NCBI GenBank assembly: GCA_902590115.1
Contig: CACIVM010000001.1
Location: 95,495 to 159,494, forward strand
DNA: 64,000 nt
Source of the DNA: an uncultured Pelagibacteraceae bacterium
GTDB taxonomy: Bacteria > Pseudomonadota > Alphaproteobacteria > Pelagibacterales > Pelagibacteraceae
Direction: 5' to 3'
The notes below the pieces were generated by a model. That model was not told where the DNA came from, made no database searches, and was given only the letters and a program-made list of their open reading frames with translations. Positions 2 through 23,339 of this stretch are shown piece after piece. The first letter of the stretch is position 1, and each line of letters begins with the position of its first letter. Both the position numbers and the translations under genes were made by a program.

Positions 2-460
2 TTATCAAATTTTAAATTTTTAAAGAAAAAAAAGATTGAAAAATGGTCTAATTGTTTTGGAGAAATTGATTATGGTTATGGAGAAAGATATTACGGTGAA
101 TTCCAAAATGGAAAATACCATGGTCAAGGAGTATATGTTTTTGGGGGAAAAAAAGGAACTTACGGTGGTCACAGAAGAGGAACCACATATAAGGGTCAAT
201 TTTTAGATGGCAACAGAGAAGGTATTGGAATTATAATTTGGATGGATGGAGATAAATACGAAGGTCAATTTAAAAAAAATAAATATCATGGTAGGGGCAC
301 TATTACATTTTCACTTAAAAACCCAGGAACATTTAAACATGGTTGGAAAATCTGGACGGGTGAATTTAAAAATGGTGCATTAGACGGCAAAGGTAAAAAA
401 ATTAACCTTAAGGGTGAAATTACTGAAGGAATTTTTGAAAAAGGGGAACTAAAAAAATAA
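2..460 (+). CDS. MORN-repeat protein, 5' truncated by window edge
   Basis: An open frame runs from position 2 to the stop at 458-460, so the N-terminus lies outside the window. An internal ATG at 242 is probably not the true start, because clear MORN-type repeats (Tyr-x-Gly-x-Phe followed by Gly-x-Gly) continue upstream of it. At least four repeats are visible, beginning near YYGEF, YKGQF, YEGQF and WTGEF. MORN repeats form beta-hairpin arrays that usually act as scaffolds or lipid-binding surfaces; no catalytic domain is seen in this part. The stop overlaps the ATG of the next gene by one base (TAATG), which suggests co-translation with the amidotransferase. The role is unknown. Glycan-cluster membership is inferred from position only. 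Confidence 0.75.
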   Translation, partial: LSNFKFLKKKKIEKWSNCFGEIDYGYGERYYGEFQNGKYHGQGVYVFGGKKGTYGGHRRGTTYKGQFLDGNREGIGIIIWMDGDKYEGQFKKNKYHGRGTITFSLKNPGTFKHGWKIWTGEFKNGALDGKGKKINLKGEITEGIFEKGELKK

Positions 461-1626
461 TGAGAAATGACACGAATAAATCCAAATATTGCATAAAGTG
501 TGTAATGCCGGAAACTAAACCTGATTTTAAAATTGAGGCTGATGGAATTTGTGTAGCATGTAAAGCATACGCAGATCGAAAAAAAATAAATTGGGAGGAA
601 AGAAAAGATCAGTTTTTAAAAATTGCAAAAAGATTTAAAGACAAGTCTAAAAATAATTATGATTGTATTATTCCCTCAAGCGGCGGTAAAGACAGTACTT
701 ACCAAGCTATAAAGATGTTAGAACTTGGGTTGAATCCTTTGTGTGTAACTGCTTCTACTGATCTACTTTCTGAATTAGGTAGATACAATATTGAAAATAT
801 GAAAAAATTGGGTGTAGATTATATTGAAATTTCAACTGATCCAATCACAAGAAGAAAAATAAATAAGTTTACTTTAGAAACTTTGGGAGATATTTCTTGG
901 GCAGAGCACTTAACTATTTTTACCATACCAGTAAGAGTATCAGTAGATATGAATATACCTTTAATTGTTTGGGGTGAAAATGCATCTAATGAGCAAGGTG
1001 GCCCAGCCACTGATATAGATAATTCTTTTTTTACTAGAAGAAGACTAGAGGAACTCGGAGGCTTATTAGGACTTAGAACTACAGACTTACCGCATTTGCT
1101 AAAAATACCCGAAAAAAAATTGATAATGTATACATATCCAACTGATGCTGAGCTTAAAAGAGTTGGAACGACTGGAGTTTTTTTAGGTTATTTTTTTTCT
1201 TGGGATGGCGAAAAAAATGCAGAAATTGCAGAAAAAAATGGATTTAAAAAATATCATAAAGAACTCGAAGGTTCTGTGGTTAATTACGAAAATCTTGATA
1301 ATTTACAAATGCGTATACATGATTATTTTAAATTTCTTAAGTATGGTTATGATAGGGTCACCGATTGGTGTTGTATTCATATTAGAAGGGGAAGAATTTC
1401 TAGAGAAGAAGCCTTAAAACTTGTAAGAGAAAAAGGTGGTAAATTTCCAAATAATTATCTGGGAGTAGACTACTTAGAAGTATTAAAAACTATCAACTGC
1501 AGCCCTGAAAAATTTAGGGAAATTTGTGATAATTTTACTAATAAAAAACTTTTTAAATGCGACCCTTCTGGCAAATTAATTAAAGATAATCAAGGAAATC
1601 CTATAAAGCTTAATTACGATAATTAG
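460..1626 (+). CDS. N-acetyl sugar amidotransferase (WbpG/PseA family)
   Basis: This is a 388-residue ATP-pyrophosphatase-type enzyme. Two CxxC pairs (residues 11-14 and 31-34) form a likely zinc knuckle, followed by the PP-loop SSGGKDS at 73-79, which adenylates the substrate. Relatives (Pseudomonas WbpG, Campylobacter PseA) convert an N-acetyl group on a sugar to an acetamidino group, using ammonia from HisH-like and HisF-like partners. The HisF-like partner follows eight bases downstream, and a HisH-like glutaminase lies at 6124-6735 beside a PseI-type synthase. This suggests amidination of a nonulosonic acid or a diamino-uronic acid. The exact substrate is inferred, not seen. A second, divergent family member lies at 19671-20873. 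Confidence 0.88.
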   Translation: MRNDTNKSKYCIKCVMPETKPDFKIEADGICVACKAYADRKKINWEERKDQFLKIAKRFKDKSKNNYDCIIPSSGGKDSTYQAIKMLELGLNPLCVTASTDLLSELGRYNIENMKKLGVDYIEISTDPITRRKINKFTLETLGDISWAEHLTIFTIPVRVSVDMNIPLIVWGENASNEQGGPATDIDNSFFTRRRLEELGGLLGLRTTDLPHLLKIPEKKLIMYTYPTDAELKRVGTTGVFLGYFFSWDGEKNAEIAEKNGFKKYHKELEGSVVNYENLDNLQMRIHDYFKFLKYGYDRVTDWCCIHIRRGRISREEALKLVREKGGKFPNNYLGVDYLEVLKTINCSPEKFREICDNFTNKKLFKCDPSGKLIKDNQGNPIKLNYDN

Positions 1627-1634
1627 TGTTATAA

Positions 1635-2393
1635 ATGGTTAGACTTAGAATTATTCCTACAGTCCTTTATAGGGATTACTCAACAGTTAAGGGAGAAAAA
1701 TTTGAAAGCTGGCGAGTTGTTGGTAACATTATCCAAGCGGTAAAAATATACTCACTAAGAGAGGTCGATGAATTAATTGTTTTAAACATTGATCTAAGCA
1801 AGAATAAGGAAAAAATAGATTTTGATCTTGTAAGTCAATTTGCTCGTGAGTGCACAATGCCACTTACAGTAGGTGGAGGAGTTTCGTCATTAGAGGATAT
1901 AGATAAATTACTTAGATCAGGAGCTGATAAAGTGAGTATAAATACAAGTGCTATTAAAAACCTAAAATTTATTGAAACTGCTATAAAAAAATTTGGTAGT
2001 CAGTGTATAGTAATTTCTGTTGATTATAAAAAATGTAATGATGGTAAACTTGAAATATTCACTAAATCAGGCTCAGAGGCAACTGGGATCGAACTTTTAA
2101 CTTTTATTAAAAATTTAAAAAAAATTAATCCAGGAGAAGTCCTGATCACTTCTATAGATCACGAAGGGAGAATGAAGGGCTACGACGTTAATGTTATAGA
2201 AAAAGTATCAAATATTTTGAATTGTCCAATAATTGCCTCTGGAGGCTGCGGGAGCTACAATCATATGTTAGATGTAGTAAAAACTTGCCCAAACGTATCA
2301 TTAGCAGCTGCAAGTATTTTTCAATTCACAGAGAATACACCCATGGGTGCTAATCAATTTTTAAAACTAAAAGGTTTTAATGTTAGAAAATAA
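1635..2393 (+). CDS. HisF-like ammonia-channel partner of sugar amidotransferase (HisF2)
   Basis: A 252-residue (beta/alpha)8 protein clearly related to imidazole-glycerol-phosphate synthase HisF, with the TVGGG phosphate-binding motif (78-82) and a TSID-x-EG segment. The HisF catalytic Asp11 is not conserved: the aligned position is Leu11, in IIPTVLYRD. Asp130 is kept in ISVDYKK. Loss of Asp11 is typical of HisF paralogues that work with WbpG/PseA, where the barrel is thought to pass ammonia rather than close an imidazole ring. It directly follows the amidotransferase and overlaps the next gene by 14 bases. It is unlikely to serve histidine synthesis, as no other his genes are nearby. Confidence 0.85.
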
Positions 2394-4215
2394 AAAAAAT
2401 TTAATTTTTAACGATTTAAGTCCATTAATTTTACTTATTGTAATATTTTTTAAATTATTAAGATTTAATATATTTTATATTAACTTAGATAAAAAATTAA
2501 GAAAAAAAATTATTATCGCATTTCTTAAAAAATTAAACATTGTATGGATTAATTATCAAGATTACAAAATAGATAATATACAAACCGAACAATTAAAACT
2601 AAGCCCAAAATTTTCAGATTATTTTTCTAAGAAAGTTTCCCATAAATTTTGGTCTAAAAACCTACAGAAGCTTTATTTGAAAAAAGACTATTTCTCAGCT
2701 TGTTTAAACTTTAGAGTCTGGAGCGAGGCACAAAATATAATTGAGATTTTAACTGTTGGAAAAATATTTCAAAAAAAAAACACTAAAACTTACGTATGGA
2801 TTAAAAGAAATAAGATAAATCGGGAAATAAATAAGAAATATTTTAACATAAGAAATATTAACTTTTTACCAAATATATATTTTCTTGAAATTTTGAAAAC
2901 TATATCTTTAGTTTCTAATTTTATCTTTAAAGCAAAGAAAAGAAAAATACCGCAATCAAAATTTGAAACAAAAAAAAATACTTTTGATAAATTCACTATC
3001 GGAATGTTCCCACATCAAGGAATTTACTATAGTGATCTTTATATTAAAGACCAATTTTATTCTAATAATAAAAAAGATCCTTTTTATCATAACAAAATTT
3101 TACATTTAGAATGGTCTAAAAAGGATCTAGACGACAGATCTGAACGTTTTTATAAAAAAAAAAAAATTCAAATTGTTTACTGGGATGAATTAGCCGATAA
3201 TAAAGAGCCCATCCTCTTATTATTGAAATTTCTAAAATCCAATTTTAGATGGTTAACTTCAATTATATTTTACGACATACAAGTAACGGTACAAATTTTA
3301 ACATCAATTTATTTAAGATATAAATCGGAATGTAAATTAAAAAAATTTGATAAATTGAAATTAATATTGGTATGTTACGATGTATTGTTTTTAAATGAGA
3401 TAGCAGTCGCTTGTAAAAAACTTAAAATTGCTACGTTATCAATTCAAGATAGATTGATATCCTCAAGCTGGTCTCCGTCAATGATTTTTGATCATTATTT
3501 CGTAATTGGACCAAAATCAAAAAAGATTTTAAAAGATAGAATGTATAAAAAATCGATTAGTAATCTTCATGATCATTATTTACAAAAAATCGAGAAGTAT
3601 CAATTTAATAAGAAGTCAATTTCAAGGAATAATAAAAAAAATAGTCTAAAATGTCTCATAATTGATTGGCACTCTTTTCCAAAAAATAATTGGTATAGTA
3701 ACGGAAGATCAGGGGTAAGAAGTTGGAGAATGAACAAGAACTTTTATAGAGATGTCGAGCTTTTATCAAAAAAATTTAAAAAAATTAATTTCTACATTAA
3801 GGGCAAAGATTATGAGTGGATAAAGAATCCATATTTTAATGAAATTTTAGTAAAAATAAAAAAATCAAAAAACATCTTCATTTTGAATGATAAAATAAAG
3901 TGGACACCGGAGTACTGCATAAAAAAAATGGATTTTGCTATTGCTAGATATTCCTCTTTAGCAGACGAAATGTTAGCAATAAATAAACCAGTAATAGTTT
4001 ACTCCCTTGCAGGAAATCCCTCAAATTTTTTCAATTTTGGAAGCAAGCTTAATGCTAATAATTTTTTTGATGTTGAAAAAAAACTAAATGAAATTAATAA
4101 AAACTTTAATAAGTATAATTATAAACTTAATTCTGATAGACAAAAATTGTTTTTTAAGTTTAAATCTAACTCATTAAAAGATAAATTAAATAAAATTTAT
4201 GGTAAAAAAGTATAA
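2380..4215 (+). CDS. Unrecognised 611-residue surface-carbohydrate protein
   Basis: A large, Lys/Asn/Ile/Phe-rich protein that I cannot place in a named family. It starts with a hydrophobic stretch (about residues 13-33) that could be a single membrane anchor or a buried helix. The C-terminal third resembles GT-B-like polysaccharide proteins: an IARYSSLADEMLAINKPVIVY segment, in which a conserved Ser precedes an acidic helix and a 'kPvivy' strand, as in CDP-glycerol transferase-like and capsule-export-type folds. It starts inside the hisF-like gene (14-base overlap) and ends inside the next small gene (17-base overlap), so it belongs to the same transcript. A glycosyltransferase or glycan-assembly role is inferred. 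The 612-residue protein at 26823-28661 is similar in size and general architecture. Confidence 0.6.
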   Translation: MLENKKNLIFNDLSPLILLIVIFFKLLRFNIFYINLDKKLRKKIIIAFLKKLNIVWINYQDYKIDNIQTEQLKLSPKFSDYFSKKVSHKFWSKNLQKLYLKKDYFSACLNFRVWSEAQNIIEILTVGKIFQKKNTKTYVWIKRNKINREINKKYFNIRNINFLPNIYFLEILKTISLVSNFIFKAKKRKIPQSKFETKKNTFDKFTIGMFPHQGIYYSDLYIKDQFYSNNKKDPFYHNKILHLEWSKKDLDDRSERFYKKKKIQIVYWDELADNKEPILLLLKFLKSNFRWLTSIIFYDIQVTVQILTSIYLRYKSECKLKKFDKLKLILVCYDVLFLNEIAVACKKLKIATLSIQDRLISSSWSPSMIFDHYFVIGPKSKKILKDRMYKKSISNLHDHYLQKIEKYQFNKKSISRNNKKNSLKCLIIDWHSFPKNNWYSNGRSGVRSWRMNKNFYRDVELLSKKFKKINFYIKGKDYEWIKNPYFNEILVKIKKSKNIFILNDKIKWTPEYCIKKMDFAIARYSSLADEMLAINKPVIVYSLAGNPSNFFNFGSKLNANNFFDVEKKLNEINKNFNKYNYKLNSDRQKLFFKFKSNSLKDKLNKIYGKKV

Positions 4216-4414
4216 ATCTAATAAAAAAAAAATAGATAAAAAAAAAATCTTGAAAATAATAAGCAGAGTCCAAAAAATAAGATCAAAAAATAATTTAAAT
4301 TGGATGAATATTCTTCGATTAGCAGTAAATAAAGCTCCAAGCGAAACAGTACAGTTGATGAGAAAAATTAATAGTAAAGACAAGCAAATAGCTGCATTGT
4401 TCAAAAAAATCTAA
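4199..4414 (+). CDS. Small basic hypothetical protein (71 aa)
   Basis: A short, highly basic protein. It overlaps the preceding gene by 17 bases and sits 28 bases before the formyltransferase-like gene. The N-terminal 28 residues are lysine-rich. The C-terminal half (NLNWMNILRLAVNKAPSE and following) looks like an ordered amphipathic helical region rather than random translation, which argues for a real gene. I do not recognise a family with certainty. Possible roles include a small partner of the neighbouring sugar-modifying enzymes; this is inference from position only. An antisense frame over the same bases is less convincing, because it is only a low-complexity hydrophobic translation. 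Confidence 0.55.
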   Translation: MVKKYKSNKKKIDKKKILKIISRVQKIRSKNNLNWMNILRLAVNKAPSETVQLMRKINSKDKQIAALFKKI

Positions 4415-4442
4415 TTTTTATTTTATATACTTGACATATAAC

Positions 4443-5051
4443 ATGAATAAAAAAATATGTATTTTTTTAGGCTATAGTCCAAAAAAAACAAAAATAATTA
4501 ATAAAATAAAAAAAAAATATATTAAAAGTTGGGAAATTAAATACATAAAAAAAAAAATTTCCTTAAAAGCGGCTAAAGAATCTGATTTGATTATAAGTTA
4601 TGGTTATAGACACATATTTACAAATAGTTTTTTAAAAAAAGTGAGTGCTCCAATAATTAATTTACACATCTCTTTTCTTCCCTTTAATAGAGGAGCTCAT
4701 CCAAATTTTTGGTCATTTATTGATGGCACTAAATCAGGGGTAACAATTCATAAAGTTGAAAAAAAAATAGATGGTGGAAAAATCCTTTTCAGAAAAGAGG
4801 TAAAATTTAATCTTGGAAAACTAAAAAGAAAACTTACTTTTACCAAAACATATCAAATTTTAATTACTGAAATCGAAAAATTATTTTTAGAAAATTCGCA
4901 TCGTATATTTAAAAAAAAATTAAAAGGCTTTTACCCTACGACAAAAGGTTCCTTTCATAGAAAAAAAGACTTACCTAAAATTTTAAAATATTGGTCACAA
5001 AATATATATGATACAAAAAAGCTTTATCACAAAAATAAGATTGGAAATTAA
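4443..5051 (+). CDS. Formyltransferase-family enzyme, sugar N-formylation likely
   Basis: About 202 residues, with the core of the 10-formyl-tetrahydrofolate transferase fold. NLHISFLPFNRGAHPNFW carries the Asn-x-His pair, followed by an IDGGK segment with the catalytic-type Asp. This matches the Asn-His-Asp triad of methionyl-tRNA formyltransferase, GART and sugar N-formyltransferases. It is shorter than Fmt and has no Fmt C-terminal domain, which favours a small-molecule or sugar substrate. I place the start at the ATG at 4443; a TTG at 4431 would add four residues. It lies just before a PseI-type synthase, so N-formylation of an amino sugar or nonulosonate intermediate is a reasonable inference. 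Confidence 0.75.
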   Translation: MNKKICIFLGYSPKKTKIINKIKKKYIKSWEIKYIKKKISLKAAKESDLIISYGYRHIFTNSFLKKVSAPIINLHISFLPFNRGAHPNFWSFIDGTKSGVTIHKVEKKIDGGKILFRKEVKFNLGKLKRKLTFTKTYQILITEIEKLFLENSHRIFKKKLKGFYPTTKGSFHRKKDLPKILKYWSQNIYDTKKLYHKNKIGN

Positions 5052-5077
5052 TAATTTAAGTGATAAATAAAATAAAT

Positions 5078-6127
5078 ATGAAAATAGGTAAATATAAAAT
5101 TTCGAGACAGAGTCACCCTTTAATTGTTGCCGAGATGTCTGGCAATCACAATAAATCACTTGAAAGAGCGATGTTGCTTGTTGAACAAGCAGCTAAATCT
5201 GGTGCTCACATGTTAAAATTACAAACATATACCGCAGATACTTTAACAATTAATTCAGAAAAAAAAGATTTTCAAATTTTATCTGAAGATAGTTTATGGA
5301 AAGGCAAGACTTTACACTCCTTGTATGATGAAGCTCATACACCTTGGGAGTGGACAGAAAAAATTATTAAAAGATGTAATGAACTTAATATTATGTGTTT
5401 TAGTACACCATTCGATGAGACAGCAGTCGATTTTCTTGAAAAGTTAAATGTCCCAGCTTATAAAATAGCCTCATATGAAAATGTTCACCTACCTTTAATT
5501 AGAAAAGTTGCCAAGACAAAAAAACCAATAATTATCTCAACAGGCTTAGCATCTATCTCAGAAATTGAGGACGCTGTTAATGTTTTAAAAGAGGAGAACT
5601 GTGATCAATTTGCTTTGTTAAAATGTACCAGTGCATATCCCGCTTCTCCAGAAAATAGCAATGTATTGACTATTCCAGACTTAAGGAAAAAATTTAATTG
5701 TGAGGTAGGTTTATCTGATCATACTGTGGGTATCGGGGCAGCTTTAGCTGCTATTTCACATGGTGCGACTATAGTAGAAAAGCACTTCACTCTTGATAGA
5801 AATGACGGTGGAGTAGACTCTAGTTTTTCTATAGAACCGAATGAATTAAAATTACTTGTTGATGAGTCAAAAAAAACTTGGCAAGCATTGGGCACAATTA
5901 AATATGGCGTGACGGAATCTGAAAAAATAGGATTACAGTTTAGAAGATCTATTTATGTAATAAAAGATATTGATAAAGATGAGCAACTTACTAATAAAAA
6001 CATAAGAATTATTCGGCCAGGAAAAGGTCTTTTACCAAAACATTTTGATAAAATTTTAGGAAAAAAAGTTAATCAAAAAATATCAAGAGGCACCCCAATG
6101 AGTTGGGAGTTTTTAGACAAAAAATGA
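5078..6127 (+). CDS. pseI: Pseudaminate-type nonulosonic acid synthase (PseI/NeuB family)
   Basis: About 349 residues. It condenses phosphoenolpyruvate with a six-carbon 2,4-diacetamido sugar to form a nine-carbon nonulosonic acid. The N-terminal TIM barrel has AEMSGNHN (18-25), LKLQTYTADTL, YDEAHTPWEW, STPFDETAVDFL, KIASYE, LKCTSAYP, GLSDH and VEKHFTLD. The C-terminal part (about 285-345) is a SAF/antifreeze-like domain (RRSIYV...RPGKGL). The TPWEW and LKLQTYT features fit PseI better than NeuB or LegI. The ATG at 5078 is preferred over an upstream GTG at 5060, because the conserved barrel begins about 15 residues after it. The stop overlaps the HisH-like start as ATGA, implying translational coupling with amidation. 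Confidence 0.9.
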   Translation: MKIGKYKISRQSHPLIVAEMSGNHNKSLERAMLLVEQAAKSGAHMLKLQTYTADTLTINSEKKDFQILSEDSLWKGKTLHSLYDEAHTPWEWTEKIIKRCNELNIMCFSTPFDETAVDFLEKLNVPAYKIASYENVHLPLIRKVAKTKKPIIISTGLASISEIEDAVNVLKEENCDQFALLKCTSAYPASPENSNVLTIPDLRKKFNCEVGLSDHTVGIGAALAAISHGATIVEKHFTLDRNDGGVDSSFSIEPNELKLLVDESKKTWQALGTIKYGVTESEKIGLQFRRSIYVIKDIDKDEQLTNKNIRIIRPGKGLLPKHFDKILGKKVNQKISRGTPMSWEFLDKK

Positions 6128-6735
6128 CAAGAGTGTGTATATTAGATTATGGTTCAGGTAACATCGGGTCGTTAAAAAATATAATTAATCATTTAAATTT
6201 TGATTGTGTAGTATCCAATAAAACAGATGAGATACAAAAATCTACTCATCTAATTTTGCCAGGAGTTGGTGCTTTTGGCAAAGTAATGGAAAAAATTAAT
6301 AAAAATTTACCTATAAAATTTCTTGAGCATGAAATTTTTAAAAAAAAGAAATTATTTTTGGGAATTTGTATTGGCATGCAAGTTTTAGCAGAGATAGGTG
6401 AAGAATTTGGCATAAATAAAGGCTTAGGATGGATACCAGGTAAAGTTGAAAAAATGAGATCAAAAAAACTACCTCATATAGGTTGGAATGAAGTTAATAT
6501 TATTCAACCATCAATTTTGTTTAATGGCTTTAAAGAAAACAGAGATTTTTATTTTGTAAATAGTTTTCATTTTAACGTAAAAGATACAAAATGTATTATC
6601 GCCAAGACCGACTATGATCATAGTTTTTGTTCTGCGGTTAGGAAAGAGAACATTTTTGGCACTCAATTTCATCCAGAAAAAAGTCAACAAGTCGGACAAC
6701 TATTATTAAAAAACTTTATAAATTATAATGGCTAA
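6124..6735 (+). CDS. HisH-like glutamine amidotransferase (HisH2)
   Basis: A 203-residue class I glutaminase with an intact triad: Cys82 in LGICIGMQ, then His183 and Glu185 in QFHPEKS. Typical HisH segments LDYGSGN, LPGVGAFG and LPHIGWNEV are present. Where HisH usually reads YFVHSY, this protein has FVNSF. The start at 6124 gives the usual HisH N-terminus and the ATGA overlap with pseI; an in-frame ATG at 6103 would add seven atypical residues. It probably supplies ammonia through the HisF-like barrel (1635-2393) to the amidotransferase at 460-1626, as in the WbpG-HisH2-HisF2 system of Pseudomonas O antigens. The histidine pathway is unlikely from context. Confidence 0.86.
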   Translation: MTRVCILDYGSGNIGSLKNIINHLNFDCVVSNKTDEIQKSTHLILPGVGAFGKVMEKINKNLPIKFLEHEIFKKKKLFLGICIGMQVLAEIGEEFGINKGLGWIPGKVEKMRSKKLPHIGWNEVNIIQPSILFNGFKENRDFYFVNSFHFNVKDTKCIIAKTDYDHSFCSAVRKENIFGTQFHPEKSQQVGQLLLKNFINYNG

Positions 6736-8288: not shown

Positions 8289-9395
8289 ATGATTAATGTT
8301 AAGGACTTGCTTACAATTTTAAAGAAAAATAATATTAATTTCTTTACTGGTGTTCCTGATAGCGTTCTCTCTCAATTATCTGCCCATTTAGATAATAACA
8401 AATCAATTGAAAATATAATTACTGGAAATGAGGGAAGCGCAGTTGCATTAGCTGTTGGTCATTTTCTTGCAAAAAAAAAAATTCCATGTGTATACATGCA
8501 GAATTCCGGGCTAGGAAATGCGATAAATCCTTTAGCTTCTATCACTCATCCAAAAGTTTACTCGATACCACTTTTGCTTATAATTGGATGGAGAGGTTCC
8601 CCATTCAGGGCTAAAGATGAACCTCAACACGAAATTAAAGGAAAAATCACAAAAGATTTATTAAAACTTTTAAATATTAAGTCATGCGTACTTAGAAATT
8701 TAAACGATTTGAAGAAATTGCAAAAACTAATTAAGTATTCAGAAGCAAATAACAGACCAGTTTGTTGTCTAATTGAGAGAAAAACACTATTACCCATCAA
8801 CAAGACTAAAAATAAAGATCTAAATCTTAAGGGAATACAAAGATCTTACGCTATTGAAACTCTGTTAAATTTGGTAAATAGTAGAACAAGAATAATTTCC
8901 ACAACAGGTTATACATCGAGAGAGTTAAATCAAATAAGAATAAAAAAAAAATTTTCTAAATCAAGAGATTTTTACATGGTTGGCGGTATGGGCCATGCCT
9001 CACTCGTGGCTCTTGGTTATGCAAAAAAAAAAAATAATCAAACTATCTGTCTTGATGGAGATGGATCTTTATTCATGCACCTTGGGGCACTCCAAACTAT
9101 TGGAAACATAGGATCTAAAAATTTCAAACATATTTTATTTAACAATGGTATCCATGAATCTGTTGGCGGCCAAAAAATAAAATCTGATAAAATAAATTTT
9201 AAATCGATGTGTTTAGCATTAGGTTATAAAAATTATTTCTACTGTGACTCTAAAAATTCACTTAAATACACATTGAGAAAATTTATATTGTCAAGTGGTC
9301 CAAGTTTCTTGAATATAAAAATCAAGCGCGGTTATATTAAAAATCTTTCAAGACCCAATAATTTTCAAAAAATAAAGAAAAATTTTATAAGATGA
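8289..9395 (+). CDS. Thiamine-diphosphate decarboxylase, phosphonopyruvate decarboxylase-like (Ppd/AepY)
   Basis: A 368-residue single-chain ThDP enzyme. Glu48 in GNEGSAVA is the conserved cofactor-activating Glu. The metal/diphosphate motif runs from GDGS (257-260) to NNG (285-287), and the following HESVGGQ is characteristic of phosphonopyruvate decarboxylases. The family makes phosphonoacetaldehyde from phosphonopyruvate; sulfopyruvate decarboxylase is a close relative, usually split into two chains. No PEP mutase, the enzyme that makes phosphonopyruvate, is encoded in the window. The substrate could therefore come from a distant gene, or the enzyme may act on another 3-substituted pyruvate. 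The stop overlaps the kinase start (ATGA). Confidence 0.87.
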   Translation: MINVKDLLTILKKNNINFFTGVPDSVLSQLSAHLDNNKSIENIITGNEGSAVALAVGHFLAKKKIPCVYMQNSGLGNAINPLASITHPKVYSIPLLLIIGWRGSPFRAKDEPQHEIKGKITKDLLKLLNIKSCVLRNLNDLKKLQKLIKYSEANNRPVCCLIERKTLLPINKTKNKDLNLKGIQRSYAIETLLNLVNSRTRIISTTGYTSRELNQIRIKKKFSKSRDFYMVGGMGHASLVALGYAKKKNNQTICLDGDGSLFMHLGALQTIGNIGSKNFKHILFNNGIHESVGGQKIKSDKINFKSMCLALGYKNYFYCDSKNSLKYTLRKFILSSGPSFLNIKIKRGYIKNLSRPNNFQKIKKNFIR

Positions 9396-15506: not shown

Positions 15507-16640
15507 ATGCCTGGTTTTGAAGCAATAGACTCAAGAGAGAAAAAAGCATTGAATAACCTTTTTAGAGAGGGCGGAACTTTGATGGCCCACGGATTTCAAA
15601 AATTAAGAAAAAAATATCATGTAAGAGAGTTTGAAAGTGCCTGCGAAAAATATTTTGGTGTTAAAAAAGCTTTAGCTGTTACATCTGGAACGGCAGGAAT
15701 AAAAATAGCATTGAGAGCTTTAAACATAAAACGTGGAGATGAAGTAATAACGCAATCTTTCAACTTTATTGCGACTATAGAGGCTATATTAGACATAGGA
15801 GCAAAACCTATAATTGTTAATGTTAATGAAACACTTAACATGAGTCCAGATGAATTATCAAAAAAAATAACAAAAAAAACTAAAGCTGTAATACCTGTGC
15901 ATATGCTTGGAGTGTCTGCTGAAATGGATCAAATAATCAGAATTTGTAAAAAAAAAAAAGTACCAGTAATTGAAGATAATTGTGAGGCTATCGGAGGAAA
16001 ATATAATAATAAATTTTTAGGTGCTGTTGGTGACGTAGGAATTTTTAGTTTTGATCATGGTAAAATTATTACTACAGGTGAAGGTGGTATGCTTTTAACT
16101 AATAATAAGTCTATCGATAAGATATCTAGAGAATATCACGATCATGGGCATGAAAACAATTCAAAATATAATAGAGGAAATGATACTAAAAAAATCTACG
16201 GCTTTAATTATAGGATGACTGAAATGCAAGGCGCAATTGGAAAAGTCCAACTATCTAAGCTGAAATGGATAATTAGGCAGAATAGAGTAAGATTTAAAAT
16301 TTTATCGGATAAACTAAATAAAAAATATAATCTTAGAAAAATACCAAAAAAATCAATTCCTAACTTTGATACTTTTATTTTATTCGAAAAGAACTTCAAA
16401 ATAAGAAGAAAAATAATTAACGTTTTAAAAAAAAATAGTTTAGGAACAAAAAACTTACCAGATGCTATCAAATGGCATTGCTCATATTATTGGTCACATG
16501 CTATCAGTAAGCAGGAGGTCAGAAATAGTTTAAAAACCAAAAAAATACTAAAATCAGCTATAGCAGTACCAATTTTAATTAAGAAGAGAGCGAGCTTATA
16601 CAGCAAAATCGCTAAAGAAATTTTTAATATCAAATCTTAA
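15507..16640 (+). CDS. DegT/DnrJ/EryC1 sugar aminotransferase
   Basis: A 377-residue fold-type I PLP enzyme that transaminates keto-sugars attached to nucleotides. TSGTAGIKIALRAL (59-72) binds the cofactor phosphate, EDNCEAIGG (156-164) is the PLP-ring segment, and Lys186 in SFDHGKIITTGEGG is the Schiff-base lysine. It lies between the PhyH-like gene and the CMP-sugar synthetase. It differs from the LegC-like aminotransferase at 29342-30508 in both ends and active-site flanks, so the two probably act on different sugars. Confidence 0.86.
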   Translation: MPGFEAIDSREKKALNNLFREGGTLMAHGFQKLRKKYHVREFESACEKYFGVKKALAVTSGTAGIKIALRALNIKRGDEVITQSFNFIATIEAILDIGAKPIIVNVNETLNMSPDELSKKITKKTKAVIPVHMLGVSAEMDQIIRICKKKKVPVIEDNCEAIGGKYNNKFLGAVGDVGIFSFDHGKIITTGEGGMLLTNNKSIDKISREYHDHGHENNSKYNRGNDTKKIYGFNYRMTEMQGAIGKVQLSKLKWIIRQNRVRFKILSDKLNKKYNLRKIPKKSIPNFDTFILFEKNFKIRRKIINVLKKNSLGTKNLPDAIKWHCSYYWSHAISKQEVRNSLKTKKILKSAIAVPILIKKRASLYSKIAKEIFNIKS

Positions 16641-16641
16641 A

Positions 16642-17343
16642 ATGAAAATACTGGGACTTATACCAGCTAGAAAAGGTTCTAAAGGCCTTAAAAATAAAAA
16701 TTTTACTAAATTTTTTCGAAAACCACTGATTCACTTTACGCTTAAAACTGCGTATGGACTAAATAAAGTGTTATATCCCTTTATCTCATCAGACTCACCA
16801 AAGATTTTGAGATATTCCAAAAAACTTAGTATTGATGGTTACTTAAGACCAAAAAAATATGCTGGAGATAAAAGCAAAATCATTGATGTAATTTTTCACG
16901 CTTTGAATTGGTTGAAAAAAAATAAAAATCAATCTTTTGATGCAGTTGCATTATTACAGCCCACATCTCCTAACAGAAAAAGTCAAGAAATTAAGAGATG
17001 CATTGGTTTATTTAAAAAGAAAAGATTAAATTCAATTTTTATATGCTCAAAAATGTATCAGCATCCTTATGAGTGTCTATCAATTAATAAAAAAGGGAAA
17101 TGGAATTTTTTAAATAAAATAGTTAATAAAAAACTTCTAAGGAGACAGGAATATGAGGGATCTTACTTTTATATAGATGGAAGTTTCTACATTGCAAAAG
17201 TTAATTTTTTAAAAAAATATAAAACTTTCCTTGTTAAAGACAAAAGTCACCCATTCATATCCTCAATACCATTAAATGTAGATATCAATGATAAATTTGA
17301 TTTAAAACTTGCTAAATTATTAAATTTACAAAATGAAAAATAA
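16642..17343 (+). CDS. CMP-nonulosonate cytidylyltransferase (NeuA/LegF/PseF-like)
   Basis: A 233-residue NTP transferase with the CMP-sugar synthetase signature IPARKGSKGLKNKN (6-19) and LLQPTSPNRKSQEI (about 103-116). It activates a nonulosonic acid with CTP before transfer to the glycan. The family includes NeuA, LegF and PseF; sequence alone does not decide the substrate. It is probably the activation step for the product of the PseI-type synthase or of a legionaminate synthase outside the window. The end overlaps the following gene by 11 bases. Confidence 0.86.
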   Translation: MKILGLIPARKGSKGLKNKNFTKFFRKPLIHFTLKTAYGLNKVLYPFISSDSPKILRYSKKLSIDGYLRPKKYAGDKSKIIDVIFHALNWLKKNKNQSFDAVALLQPTSPNRKSQEIKRCIGLFKKKRLNSIFICSKMYQHPYECLSINKKGKWNFLNKIVNKKLLRRQEYEGSYFYIDGSFYIAKVNFLKKYKTFLVKDKSHPFISSIPLNVDINDKFDLKLAKLLNLQNEK

Positions 17344-18493: not shown

Positions 18494-19681
18494 ATGAAAT
18501 TAATTTTTTTATCATCAATACCTTTTATTGAGGGTGATCATTTCAAATATGGTTTTGAATATTATCATAAAAATAATATTAAAATTGAGATTTGTTATTT
18601 AAATAAAGTTTTTTCAAGAAATTACAAGGTACCATCAAAAAATTTCAGTAAAAAAATTAAAGTTATTTACTTGGAGACAATCAAAGAGTTTGATGAATAC
18701 ATAAAAAGTAATAAAGACGCTGTTTTTTTTCTTAGATATACATATAATTTTAACAATAGAAAAATTTTCAATTTACTTTCAAAAAATTCCGCAAAATATA
18801 TTTACTCTCAAGGAGTATTAAGACATGATAGTTTCGGTTATTTAAATTTGCCACTAAAAAGAATCCTGATAATTAAATTAAAGCAATTATTAAAAGGAAA
18901 AATTTTTAATATTTTTAATAGTATAATTAATAAGTTATTCCTTTTAATAAATAAGAAATGTTTTGGTATAAAAAATGCAGAATATATTCTTCTAAAAGGT
19001 GAATATGGTGAAAAAATAAAAAAACATAGACTTTACGGCAGCAAGACAAAAATTATAAATGCTCATCACAGAGACTATGATAAGTTTTTATTTTTTAAAA
19101 AAAAAAAAATTAAAAGCAATATAAAAAAAGCAATATTTATAGACCAAGGAGTACCATTTCACCCTGATCAGAAAGAAATAGGTATTATAAATATTGACGA
19201 AAAAAGATATTATAATTCAATCAAAAATTTTTTAACAAAACTAAGAGACCTAAATGGATACAAAATTGAAATTTCTTGTCATCCTAGAATAAACATTAAT
19301 CTTATTAAAAAATACTTTAAAAATTTTACTATTAAAAAATACCAAACAATTAATCAAATTTATAATTCTGATTTAGTTTTGACACACGAGTCTAATGCTA
19401 TCAATTTTGCTATTTTATTTAAGAAAAAAATTCTATTTATTACCAATAATGAACTATGTAAACAACCATACGCTTTTAAAGAGTCTTTTGAATTTTTATC
19501 TAGAAGGTTAAAAAAAAAATGTTATAACATTGACAATTTTGATATTAAAAAATTAAAATTAATTACAAAAGTAAATCAAAAAGCTTATGCAAACTTTGTT
19601 AAAAGATATATTAAGTTTAAAGGTTTAAATGAGCACCATGCGAATATTATATCTAAAAAACTAAAAAAATATGATTATTAA
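18494..19681 (+). CDS. Putative glycosyltransferase / surface polysaccharide protein
   Basis: A 395-residue protein with GT-B-like features but no clear family. A hydrophobic strand begins it (LIFLSSIPFIEGDHF). In the second half, FIDQGVPFHPDQ, EISCHPRINI and SDLVLTHESNAINFAILFKKKILFI resemble the nucleotide-binding lobe of sialyl- or polysaccharyl-transferases. It lies directly upstream of the second amidotransferase (11-base overlap), so it may transfer the sugar which that system modifies. Assignment as a glycosyltransferase is inference from fold-like motifs and context. Confidence 0.55.
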   Translation: MKLIFLSSIPFIEGDHFKYGFEYYHKNNIKIEICYLNKVFSRNYKVPSKNFSKKIKVIYLETIKEFDEYIKSNKDAVFFLRYTYNFNNRKIFNLLSKNSAKYIYSQGVLRHDSFGYLNLPLKRILIIKLKQLLKGKIFNIFNSIINKLFLLINKKCFGIKNAEYILLKGEYGEKIKKHRLYGSKTKIINAHHRDYDKFLFFKKKKIKSNIKKAIFIDQGVPFHPDQKEIGIINIDEKRYYNSIKNFLTKLRDLNGYKIEISCHPRININLIKKYFKNFTIKKYQTINQIYNSDLVLTHESNAINFAILFKKKILFITNNELCKQPYAFKESFEFLSRRLKKKCYNIDNFDIKKLKLITKVNQKAYANFVKRYIKFKGLNEHHANIISKKLKKYDY

Positions 19682-20873
19682 ACCTTTAAAAAAACACTTA
19701 GAAACTCAATTTATTGGTCAGCCAAAAAAAATTGAATTTTGTAAAAAATGTGTAATGTCTAACCAAAGACCAAGAATTTCATTTAAGGATGGCATTTGTT
19801 CTCCTTGTCAATATACGGAAATGAAGAAAAAAAATATTATTAATTATAAAGAAAGAAAAATTGAATTAGAAAAACTTTTAGATAAACATAGGAGTAAAAA
19901 TGGTGAACATGATGTTATTGTACCATGTAGTGGTGGAAAAGATTCGGGGATGATAGCTCATCGATTAAAAGTTGATTACGGCATGACACCGCTTTGCGTA
20001 ACATTTTCCCCACCTTTGTATACTGAGATTGGTAGAAAAAATTTAAAAAGTATGATTGATGCTGGATTTGATCACAAGCTTATAACTCCAAACCCTAAGC
20101 TGCACAAATTACTTTCAAAGCTTTGTTTTATTTATCTCGGAGATCATGAGGAAATTTTTGATAGGGGGCAACTTCAAACCCCAATTCAAGAGGCTTACAA
20201 CAATGATATCAAATTGATAATGTACGGTGAAAATGGTGAGCTAGAGTATGGTGGAGATATAAGTACAATCAATTTCAAGGGTATGCCATGGGATTGGTAT
20301 GAGAAAATTTATTTTAGCACACCAATTGATAACATCGTAAAAATTGCTAAAGATGATGGTTACTTTAAATACTATGATATTCCTTTTTCAAAAGGAAATT
20401 TAAACATCTATGATTTACCAAACAAAAAAGATTTAATTAAAAAAGGCATAGAGTTTCATTGGTGGGGTTATTATAACAAGTGGATACCACAGGATAATTA
20501 TTATTATTCTGCAAAACATTTAGGTTTTGAGGCTAACCCAGAAGGGAGAATGGAAGGAACTTACTCTAAGTATGCTCAACTCGATGACGCTACTGACTCA
20601 TTCCTATACTACATGATGTTTATAAAATATGGAATTGGAAGAGCTACCTCGGATGCTTCACATGAAGTAAGAGATGGGCATATTACCAGAGAAGAAGCCG
20701 TTAGATTGGTGAGAAGATTTGACGGAGAGTTACCAAGAAAAAGTATGAGAATTTTTTTAGAATATCTTGACTTAGAAGAAAATGAATTTTGGGAAGTGGT
20801 TGATAGATTCAGGAGAGATCATATTTGGAAAAGAGACGGAAACTCGTGGTCTTTAAAAAATCAAGTAAGCTAA
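19671..20873 (+). CDS. Second N-acetyl sugar amidotransferase (WbpG-like)
   Basis: A 400-residue PP-loop ATPase, paralogous to the protein at 460-1626 but clearly divergent. CxxC pairs lie at 24-27 and 43-46, the PP-loop CSGGKDS at 86-92, and the C-terminus (ITREEAVRLVRRFDGELPR) matches the family. It should adenylate and amidate an acetamido sugar using ammonia delivered by a HisH/HisF pair. That pair is encoded seven bases downstream as one fused polypeptide. Having a second set suggests two different amidinated or amidated sugars in the same glycan, or alternative substrates. Confidence 0.87.
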   Translation: MIIKPLKKHLETQFIGQPKKIEFCKKCVMSNQRPRISFKDGICSPCQYTEMKKKNIINYKERKIELEKLLDKHRSKNGEHDVIVPCSGGKDSGMIAHRLKVDYGMTPLCVTFSPPLYTEIGRKNLKSMIDAGFDHKLITPNPKLHKLLSKLCFIYLGDHEEIFDRGQLQTPIQEAYNNDIKLIMYGENGELEYGGDISTINFKGMPWDWYEKIYFSTPIDNIVKIAKDDGYFKYYDIPFSKGNLNIYDLPNKKDLIKKGIEFHWWGYYNKWIPQDNYYYSAKHLGFEANPEGRMEGTYSKYAQLDDATDSFLYYMMFIKYGIGRATSDASHEVRDGHITREEAVRLVRRFDGELPRKSMRIFLEYLDLEENEFWEVVDRFRRDHIWKRDGNSWSLKNQVS

Positions 20874-20880
20874 TATTATA

Positions 20881-22260
20881 ATGAAAAGAGTAATCGCAAG
20901 ACTTGATGTAAAAGGTGAAAATGTAATTAAAGGAGTTCATCTAGAAGGATTAAAAATAATAGATACAGCTAAAAATCTAAGTTTTAAATATGCAAAGCAA
21001 GATATAGATGAAATCTATTTTCATGACAGCGTAGCCTCACTTTACGAAAGAAATAATTTAACTAACATAATAGAAGAAGTTTCAGCAAATATTAATATTC
21101 CTTTAACTGTGGGTGGAGGCATTAAAAAGGTCGAAGATATTGAGAAAATTTTAATCTCTGGAGCTGATAAAGTATCAATTAACACAAAGTTTATTGAAGA
21201 CGTGAAATCAGTTTCAAAATTTACAAAAAAATTTGGATCCCAAGCTATAGTAGGCTCCATAGAGGCAAAATTTTTAAATAATGACTGGTATTGTTTTACT
21301 GATAACGGCAGAAATTTGACTAATAAAAAAGTTAAAGATTGGATAATTAATTTACAAAACGAAGGAGTTGGGGAATTAATAATAACATCAGTAGATATGG
21401 AGGGAACTAAAAAAGGTTTTGACTATAATTTGCTAGAGGCAATTCAAAAAAGTATTAAGATACCATTAATTGTCAGCGGTGGAATCGGCAAATATGATGA
21501 TATTAAAAAATGTTTTGATAATGAAATTGTAACAGGAGTGGCTATAGCTTCAATTGTTCATAACGATAGTACTAATTTTGATAAAATCAAAAAAAATTGT
21601 AATTTGGAAAAAAGAAATATCCCAATCTTTAATATAAAAAAAAATAAACAAAAAGTATCAATTCTTAAGACAAAAATCTGTAATTTTAGAAGTCTTTACA
21701 ATTCTCTAAGAAAGATTTGTGAGGTGGAGATAATTGATGACGTTTCTAAGAATAATTATGATAAGGTAATTTTACCAGGTGTTGGTTCATTTCCAGAAAT
21801 TATGAGTGAATTAAAAGGAGAGAAGAAAAAATTTGTTGAAAATTTTGTTAAGAAAGGCAATCCTATTCTAGGGATATGTTTGGGTGCTCAAGCTTTTTTT
21901 TCCAATAGCTTTGAAATTACAGAAACTAAAGGTCTTAATCTAATTAAAGGTTTTAATAAACATTTAAAAAATATAAGTAATAATGAAAATCTAGTAGTGC
22001 CACATATAGGTTGGTCTAAAATAGATTTTAAAGAGCACGATATATTTAATAATTTAGAACACAACTGTATGATGTATTTTATTCACTCTTACAACTTCGT
22101 TCCTAATGATAATAATTTAATTTTTGCAAAATCCCCTTATGGCTCTTGTAATATTAATGCAGTATGCATAAAAGACAATATAATAGCTTGTCAATTTCAC
22201 CCTGAAAAGAGTGGAATAAGTGGTTTAGTTCTTTTAGAGAACTTTTCTAATTTGGATTAA
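20881..22260 (+). CDS. HisF-HisH fusion: ammonia-channel barrel plus glutaminase in one chain
   Basis: A 459-residue bifunctional protein. Residues 1 to about 245 are a HisF-like barrel (RLDVKGENVIKG, TVGGG at 76-80, TSVDMEGTKKGFD). Residues about 258-459 are a HisH-like glutaminase with Cys333 (GICLGAQ), His440 and Glu442 (QFHPEKS). In the barrel, HisF Asp11 is kept (Asp9), but Asp130 is replaced by Glu128 (SIEAK). Yeast His7 has the reverse order, glutaminase first. The frame is open throughout, with no stop or frameshift near the junction. It follows the second amidotransferase and is probably its dedicated ammonia generator, not a histidine enzyme. Confidence 0.9.
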   Translation: MKRVIARLDVKGENVIKGVHLEGLKIIDTAKNLSFKYAKQDIDEIYFHDSVASLYERNNLTNIIEEVSANINIPLTVGGGIKKVEDIEKILISGADKVSINTKFIEDVKSVSKFTKKFGSQAIVGSIEAKFLNNDWYCFTDNGRNLTNKKVKDWIINLQNEGVGELIITSVDMEGTKKGFDYNLLEAIQKSIKIPLIVSGGIGKYDDIKKCFDNEIVTGVAIASIVHNDSTNFDKIKKNCNLEKRNIPIFNIKKNKQKVSILKTKICNFRSLYNSLRKICEVEIIDDVSKNNYDKVILPGVGSFPEIMSELKGEKKKFVENFVKKGNPILGICLGAQAFFSNSFEITETKGLNLIKGFNKHLKNISNNENLVVPHIGWSKIDFKEHDIFNNLEHNCMMYFIHSYNFVPNDNNLIFAKSPYGSCNINAVCIKDNIIACQFHPEKSGISGLVLLENFSNLD

Positions 22261-22262
22261 TT

Positions 22263-23339
22263 ATGATCTTTAAAAAAACATTAAAAAAAGTTTCAAGGCC
22301 AAATTGGATTTTAAATAATTATAGAGATACTAGAAAATTATGGCTTGATAAAAATGAAAACACAGATGAAATCCTAGCGAAACAAACAAAAAAAATGCTT
22401 TCAAAATTGGACACTTCAAGTGTTTTTAGCTATCCAAATTTGGGTCCAATTTATAAAAAACTTGGCAATTATCTAAAAATTAATCCAAAAAAAATTATAT
22501 TAACCTCTGGATCTGATGCTGGAATAAAAATGATTTTTGAAGCTTTTGTAAGTCCAAAAGACATAGTGATAAGAACTAATCCTACTTTTGCCATGTATGG
22601 CGTTTATACTAAAATTTATGATACTAGAGAAATAGTGGTTAATTATAAAAGAACTAAAGATGGGCCAAAAATAGATATAAAAAAATTTTTAAGACTAATT
22701 AAAAAGAAAAAACCAAGATTAATCTGTTTACCAAATTCAGACAGCCCCACAGGCCATGCTTTTAAAAATAGTGAAATAAAAGATATACTATCAGTCGCAA
22801 AAACATCTAAGTCTTTAGTTTTAATTGATGAAGCGTATTATCCTTTTTATGGTCAAACAAGTAAGAGATTTTTAAGTAAATATGAAAATTTACTTATAAC
22901 TAGAACAACCGCTAAAGCCTGGGGGCTTGCTGGTCTTAGGGTAGGATTTGTTCTATCTTCTCATAAAAACATTAATGAAATACATAAAATAAGACCGATG
23001 TATGAAATTAATAATATTGGTGCTCAAATATTAAGTCGAATTTTATCAAAACAAAAATATATCAATCAGTCAGTTAAAAGATTGATAAATGGAAAAAAAT
23101 ATTTTAGGAGCGAATTAAAAAAAATTGGATTTAAAGTATTCAAATCAGAACACGGAAATTTTTTACATGTTGATTTCTTAAATGATAAGAAAAAAATTAT
23201 TAAAAAATTAAATAAAATAGTTTACTTCAGACACAATGAAAACCATCCGAGTATAAGTGGTTATAGTAGATTTTCACTAACTTCTAAGAAAAATTTTTCT
23301 AAAATTATAAAACAAATAAGAAAAACGATAAACAAATGA
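22263..23339 (+). CDS. HisC-like class I/II aminotransferase
   Basis: A 358-residue fold-type I PLP enzyme of the histidinol-phosphate aminotransferase family. SGSDAGIK (82-89) binds the cofactor, PNSDSPTG (157-164) and DEAYYPF (189-195) are the conserved core, and Lys218 in TTAKAWGLAGLRVGF is the Schiff-base lysine. In glycan clusters such enzymes transaminate small keto-acids or amino-sugar precursors. It lies two bases after the HisF-HisH fusion, but without hisB, hisD or hisG a histidine role is unlikely. It may supply an amino group in the KdsB-containing module that follows. The stop and next start overlap (ATGA). Confidence 0.82.
   Translation: MIFKKTLKKVSRPNWILNNYRDTRKLWLDKNENTDEILAKQTKKMLSKLDTSSVFSYPNLGPIYKKLGNYLKINPKKIILTSGSDAGIKMIFEAFVSPKDIVIRTNPTFAMYGVYTKIYDTREIVVNYKRTKDGPKIDIKKFLRLIKKKKPRLICLPNSDSPTGHAFKNSEIKDILSVAKTSKSLVLIDEAYYPFYGQTSKRFLSKYENLLITRTTAKAWGLAGLRVGFVLSSHKNINEIHKIRPMYEINNIGAQILSRILSKQKYINQSVKRLINGKKYFRSELKKIGFKVFKSEHGNFLHVDFLNDKKKIIKKLNKIVYFRHNENHPSISGYSRFSLTSKKNFSKIIKQIRKTINK

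Follow-up and report, generated by a model that had tools for sequence, protein, structure and literature searches.

We identified a single-chain HisF-HisH protein of 459 residues, encoded directly downstream of an N-acetyl sugar amidotransferase gene of the WbuX family, in a stretch of 64,000 nucleotides (hereafter the window) of a draft assembly from an uncultured Pelagibacteraceae bacterium (GCA_902590115.1, contig CACIVM010000001.1). The fusion is apparently a very rare one-chain form of a sugar amidotransferase partner known as two proteins. From its sequence and its setting, we consider it likely to be a one-chain WbuZ-WbuY, which would channel glutamine-derived ammonia to the adjacent WbuX and would have arisen from a coupled hisF2-hisH2 pair. 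The features of the locus and of the surrounding sugar island are presented in Table 1.

Table 1. Position of the fused gene, its domains and the neighbouring genes in the window.
Feature	Coordinates	Strand	Basis or remark
HisF2-HisH2 (WbuZ-WbuY) fusion, 459 aa	20881..22260	+	ORF, HMM matches, residue alignment, AlphaFold2
HisF2-like barrel, residues 1-240; D9, K17, E44, D96, K97, E128, E165, E174	20881..21600	+	
Junction, residues 241-257; lowest model confidence; ATG/GTG absent	21601..21651	+	
HisH2-like glutaminase, residues 258-459; triad C333, H440, E442; K443 = HisH K181	21652..22257	+	
N-acetyl sugar amidotransferase (WbuX/WbpG/NASAT family), presumed ammonia user	19671..20873	+	TIGR03573, 8WEX match
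HisC-like class I/II aminotransferase, below hisC cut-off	22263..23339	+	2 bases past fusion stop
DegT-family aminotransferase	15507..16640	+	NCBIfam/Pfam
CMP-sugar cytidylyltransferase-like gene	16642..17343	+	NCBIfam/Pfam
Second WbuX-family amidotransferase	460..1626	+	
Second HisF2, WbuZ/AglZ type, Leu at catalytic Asp11 position	1635..2393	+	
Free-standing HisH, sugar type, sole unfused HisH of assembly	6103..6735	+	

Domain composition of the fused protein

The frame runs from ATG to TAA over 459 codons, with no internal stop. Pfam matches placed a His_biosynth domain at residues 3-230 and a GATase domain at residues 282-445, and NCBIfam models placed WbuZ/HisF at residues 2-241 and HisH (TIGR01855) at residues 259-457, the latter with 163.5 bits against a cut-off of 105.4. 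The frame and both sets of matches agree with a previous reading of this DNA, made from the sequence only, which had proposed an uninterrupted 459-residue frame joining a HisF-like barrel to a HisH-like glutaminase. The best-scoring NCBIfam model for the fusion was WbuZ (TIGR03572), yet the score of 216.6 bits remained under the equivalog cut-off of 299.7, which counts against a WbuZ-like role. Because of this score, the fusion is classed as a relative working like WbuZ and not as a WbuZ equivalog.

The AlphaFold2 model of the whole chain had a pLDDT of 94.5 and a pTM of 0.93, with a minimum at the junction (block means 72-88). When the barrel only was submitted to structure comparison, it superposed on 1gpw chain A with a Z score of 33.4 and an rmsd of 1.9 over 243 residues.

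Active-site, gate and interface residues

Residues were numbered by alignment to HisF and HisH of T. maritima. In the glutaminase part, C84, H178 and E180 of HisH correspond to C333, H440 and E442 of the fusion, so that the triad named in the sequence-only reading is intact; the oxyanion motif PGVG is also intact, as in class I glutaminases. As a side observation, the canonical his-operon HisH proteins of relatives (loci L025-L034 and L064-L091) carry PGQG in 31 of 32 cases, and the oxyanion motif of T. maritima HisH is PGVG. The fusion keeps R5, E46, K99 and E167, which form the ammonia gate of T. maritima IGP synthase, together with HisF D98 and HisH K181, the interface pair of that enzyme. 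All these gate and interface residues are nearly invariant across the sugar-associated clade described below.

The cyclase positions gave another picture. Alignment to T. maritima HisF confirmed that D9 is equivalent to D11 and that E128 stands at D130, as noted previously; in addition, D176 is replaced by E174, and T21V, N22H and F23L give a loop 1 reading V-H-L at positions 21-23. D11 and D130 are the catalytic acid and base in HisF (PMC11350729), and the fusion thus retains one of the two catalytic aspartates of an IGP synthase. Most phosphate-site residues are kept in the barrel. In T. maritima HisF, the kcat of 2.4 per second falls to 0.018 for T21G, 0.29 for N22A and 0.0055 for F23A, a decrease of about 8- to 440-fold (PMC11350729). 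The loop-1 changes of the fusion are suggestive only of a loss of PrFAR cyclisation, because its substitutions differ from those mutations and position 21 is I or V in canonical relatives too. Overall, these residues would fit a barrel retained as an ammonia conduit, with its original cyclase chemistry lost or altered.

Placement in the sugar-associated HisF2 clade and origin of the domain order

In the barrel tree, the fusion fell inside a clade of HisF2 proteins from sugar loci (SH-aLRT 99; 40 rows, the fusion among them), and canonical HisF formed a separate clade (SH-aLRT 96). The tree of the HisH domain gave no firm placement for the fused glutaminase. Of 38 members of the sugar clade, 28 have E at position 130, 7 have Q and 3 have D, compared to D in all 33 canonical sequences. 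Since E or Q is found in 35 of these 38 members, Glu128, previously noted in the fused protein, is a signature of the clade and not a feature peculiar to this protein. Loop 1 carries a second signature, Glu24-Gly25, in nearly all members.

We then consider the gene order. Among 60 adjacent HisF2/HisH2 pairs of relatives, HisF2 comes first and the pair usually lies beside WbuX. The commonest arrangement is a 4-bp overlap (20/60), and ten pairs have both genes in the same frame. When in-frame pairs were translated across their stops and aligned with the fusion, the latter showed only a few extra residues at the junction. A HisF2-HisH2 pair deprived of the HisF2 stop and the HisH2 start codon would therefore give a protein of this kind, and the HisF-HisH order is simply the gene order of the clade. 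The domain order had been described as the reverse of that of yeast His7: the two orders are indeed opposite, but no reversal is involved.

HisH-HisF2-WbuX type sets were also observed on contigs of the viral collection (L206, L207, L208-L211 and L212). A common arrangement is kept in L208-L211, with additional epimerase and aminotransferase-like genes in L208, and these sets may be phage-borne sugar amidation clusters.

The junction and the hypothesis of an erroneous frame

The fusion is known from one sequence in a draft assembly, 63.7% complete and in 40 contigs, which favors the alternative that the fused frame is a sequencing or assembly error and that the organism really has two adjacent genes. 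An A-rich homopolymer at the junction (about 21634-21650) points in the same direction, as do the ten in-frame pairs of relatives, parted by just a stop and a few bases. However, a restored stop would leave the HisH part without a start: none of the frames contains an ATG at 21600-21700, and in-frame start codons around the junction are limited to GTG 220, TTG 242 and GTG 282, for a HisH domain starting at about residue 258. A single missed stop or read error alone cannot explain the fused frame, because the TTG at codon 242 is the only start of its own that the HisH part has near the boundary. Moreover, the N-terminal motif of HisH has diverged, from D-Y-G-x-G-N in most relatives to K-T-K-I-C-N in the fusion, and the frame runs on across the junction with a low third-position GC on either side (0.18 and 0.20). 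Taken together, these observations make an error very unlikely. We retain the fusion as one polypeptide, encoded by one frame, where a WbuZ-WbuY pair consists of two.

Search for other HisF-HisH fusions

The sequence-only reading had proposed a search for the same domain order. A second HisF-HisH fusion was not found when the fusion was searched against about 1,250 genomes. The searches covered all 169 available genomes of the genus, 100 relatives, 397 genomes of the order, 386 of the class and 397 of the phylum, in a sampling that was not exhaustive and in which some searches scored the four best candidates per genome. None was found among the best 80 loci listed from a wider genome contig collection, or in viral contigs, phage or plasmid records. 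Likewise, the genomes searched gave no close orthologue of the fusion.

Several candidates were rejected: three long frames were explained by runs of N (L008), an upstream extension (L107) and a wrong-strand frame (L114), and two genomes of the genus whose sole HisH scored weakly (G448 and G498) proved not to carry fusions. In the literature, with partial coverage of subscription papers, we found no HisF-first fusion. The earlier statement that the WbpG-HisH2-HisF2 system is known only with separate subunits is in agreement with these results, HisF2 and HisH2 being two proteins in every relative examined.

Neighbouring genes and the presumed ammonia user

The gene located seven bases before the ATG of the fusion, previously described as a WbpG-like amidotransferase, matched TIGR03573 with 329.7 bits (cut-off 203.2), which supports this assignment. 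Its product contains an SGGKDS PP-loop and a CKKC...CSPC tetracysteine motif and matches PDB 8WEX over residues 10-399 (E 1e-85). Both motifs are named in the paper on LpNASAT (PMC10607449) and are characteristic of the family. Tallying neighbours, as had also been suggested, we observed a WbuX homologue in the retrieved flanks at 75 of 95 non-canonical HisF loci, many of them examined with flanks of just 1.5 kb, and at none of the 109 his-operon loci. As in WbuZ-WbuY pairs, the HisF homologue of the fusion lies off the his operon, beside HisH and WbuX in a saccharide cluster.

The HisC-like gene is probably in one operon with the fusion, and it is followed by genes for Gfo/Idh/MocA oxidoreductases and a KdsB-like cytidylyltransferase. 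This downstream group raises the alternative that the fusion supplies ammonia to one of these enzymes, or acts as a general glutaminase, and 20 of the 95 non-canonical loci, with no WbuX in the fetched flank, could be read in the same sense. Nevertheless, the downstream families are not known as users of glutaminase ammonia, and WbuX is both the immediate upstream neighbour here and, even with such short flanks, the usual neighbour elsewhere. A user other than WbuX is therefore unlikely.

The island carries another WbuX/HisF2/HisH2 set, which is unfused (window positions 460-6735). In this set, HisH lies 3.7 kb from its HisF2 barrel, with a pseudaminic acid synthase gene in between. The true start of this HisH is probably the ATG at 6124, because the HMM match begins at residue 11. 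The island also contains PseI, NeuC, NeuD and phosphonopyruvate decarboxylase genes, and its product is likely to be an acidic nonulosonic sugar. The phosphonopyruvate decarboxylase (8289-9395; 382.6 bits, cut-off 312.5) suggests that a phosphonate is synthesised in the island or attached there.

A histidine operon lacking hisH

Apart from HisA, the assembly encodes three HisF-like proteins, namely the fusion, the HisF2 at 1635-2393 and a canonical HisF on contig C10, and its two HisH domains are that of the fusion and the free-standing one. The his operon (L055, G000:C10, 10939-13025, - strand) reads hisB-hisA-hisF. Only 19 bases separate hisB from hisA, and hisH is absent from this interval. 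By comparison, hisH immediately precedes hisA in each of the 36 judgeable loci of relatives, some of which come from one genome, and the sole exceptions are the records of the genome studied here. Among the observations related to the fusion, this hisH-less operon is the most unusual. Either hisH lies in the third of the genome that the assembly does not cover, or histidine synthesis draws on another HisH. The hisA gene is 71-75% identical to named Pelagibacterales records, which suggests SAR11.

With two HisH domains in the assembly and none in the operon, the glutaminase for histidine would be needed from elsewhere, and the fusion, which keeps D9 and most phosphate-site residues, could be proposed as the imidazole glycerol phosphate synthase, a HisF-HisH counterpart of yeast His7. 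We regard this as highly improbable. A complete canonical HisF exists in the genome, in a hisA/hisB/hisF cluster situated on another contig than the fusion, whose only his-like neighbour is the HisC-like aminotransferase scoring below the hisC cut-off, and the free HisH (6103-6735) is a likelier replacement. The D130E and D176E changes, the altered loop 1, the position of the barrel in the sugar clade and the location of the gene beside WbuX in a polysaccharide island argue against it as well. More speculatively, in a cell that has three HisF-like barrels and whose his operon has lost the canonical hisH, one glutaminase may have been tied covalently to the sugar barrel against mis-pairing, and the free HisH may serve both the other HisF2 and the histidine HisF; we hold this idea to be rather doubtful.

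Proposed function of the fusion

A one-chain ammonia supplier for the sugar amidotransferase, as put forward in the sequence-only reading, remains the likely function, and from the clade, the residues and the neighbours we infer that the fusion is active as a glutaminase, transfers ammonia and contacts WbuX, as well as the nature of the sugar product. The C-terminal domain would hydrolyse glutamine. The ammonia would pass the conserved gate, situated at the base of the N-terminal barrel, then move up the barrel core and be consumed by the WbuX-family amidotransferase of the gene immediately upstream. In this enzyme, ATP would activate the acetamido group of an N-acetyl sugar and nitrogen would replace oxygen, giving an acetamidino sugar destined for surface polysaccharide. 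The fused gene itself would derive from a translationally coupled hisF2-hisH2 pair that lost the hisF2 stop and the hisH2 start codon. The full-length domains, the intact triad, the clade placement, the WbuX linkage and the separate canonical HisF all support a role as ammonia source.

WbpG-type reactions can run without their HisF2/HisH2 partners when ammonia is plentiful, and the role of these partners is for this reason supportive rather than proven. How HisF2 and HisH2 contribute to sugar amidation is poorly understood, and a natural one-chain form beside its amidotransferase supports the view that they function together, in a constant ratio of 1:1, as a single unit delivering ammonia. The fusion also offers a convenient protein for probing channelling to the amidotransferase. 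It shows that a fusion with HisF first, the opposite of the His7 order, is tolerated. Its wider impact is limited by its rarity and by its ordinary presumed role.

Comparison with known systems

The closest systems are the WbuZ/WbuY partners of WbuX, WbpG and PseA-type amidotransferases (TIGR03572, TIGR01855, TIGR03573), which share with the fusion both domains and a WbuX neighbour in a surface-sugar cluster and differ in being two separate chains. On the side of the amidotransferase, LpNASAT of Legionella (PDB 8WEX) is a relative of the upstream neighbour, with PP-loop and tetracysteine motifs in both; the structure is that of the amidotransferase alone, and the terms HisF, HisH, glutamin- and channel are absent from the main text (PMC10607449). 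The HisH-HisF heterodimer of T. maritima (1GPW) has the barrel fold and the gate and interface residues in common with the fusion, which differs by D130E, D176E, a changed loop 1, its single chain and the lack of a hisA neighbour.

Fused IGP synthases are known as well. The sequence search matched the fusion to the solved structure 1jvn, and HisHF fusions have been reported in bacteria and archaea (Fani et al., 2007, PMC1963479). We also observed a HisH-first HisH-HisF fusion of 490 aa, in the order of yeast His7, by a hisA-like frame in a Phycisphaerales MAG (L187, 3986-5458, + strand). Yeast His7 and the bacterial and archaeal HisHF resemble the present protein in carrying glutaminase and barrel in one chain. 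However, His7 starts with the HisH domain and functions in histidine synthesis, whereas the fusion starts with HisF, carries changes at cyclase positions and lies among sugar genes; the two derive from different gene arrangements.
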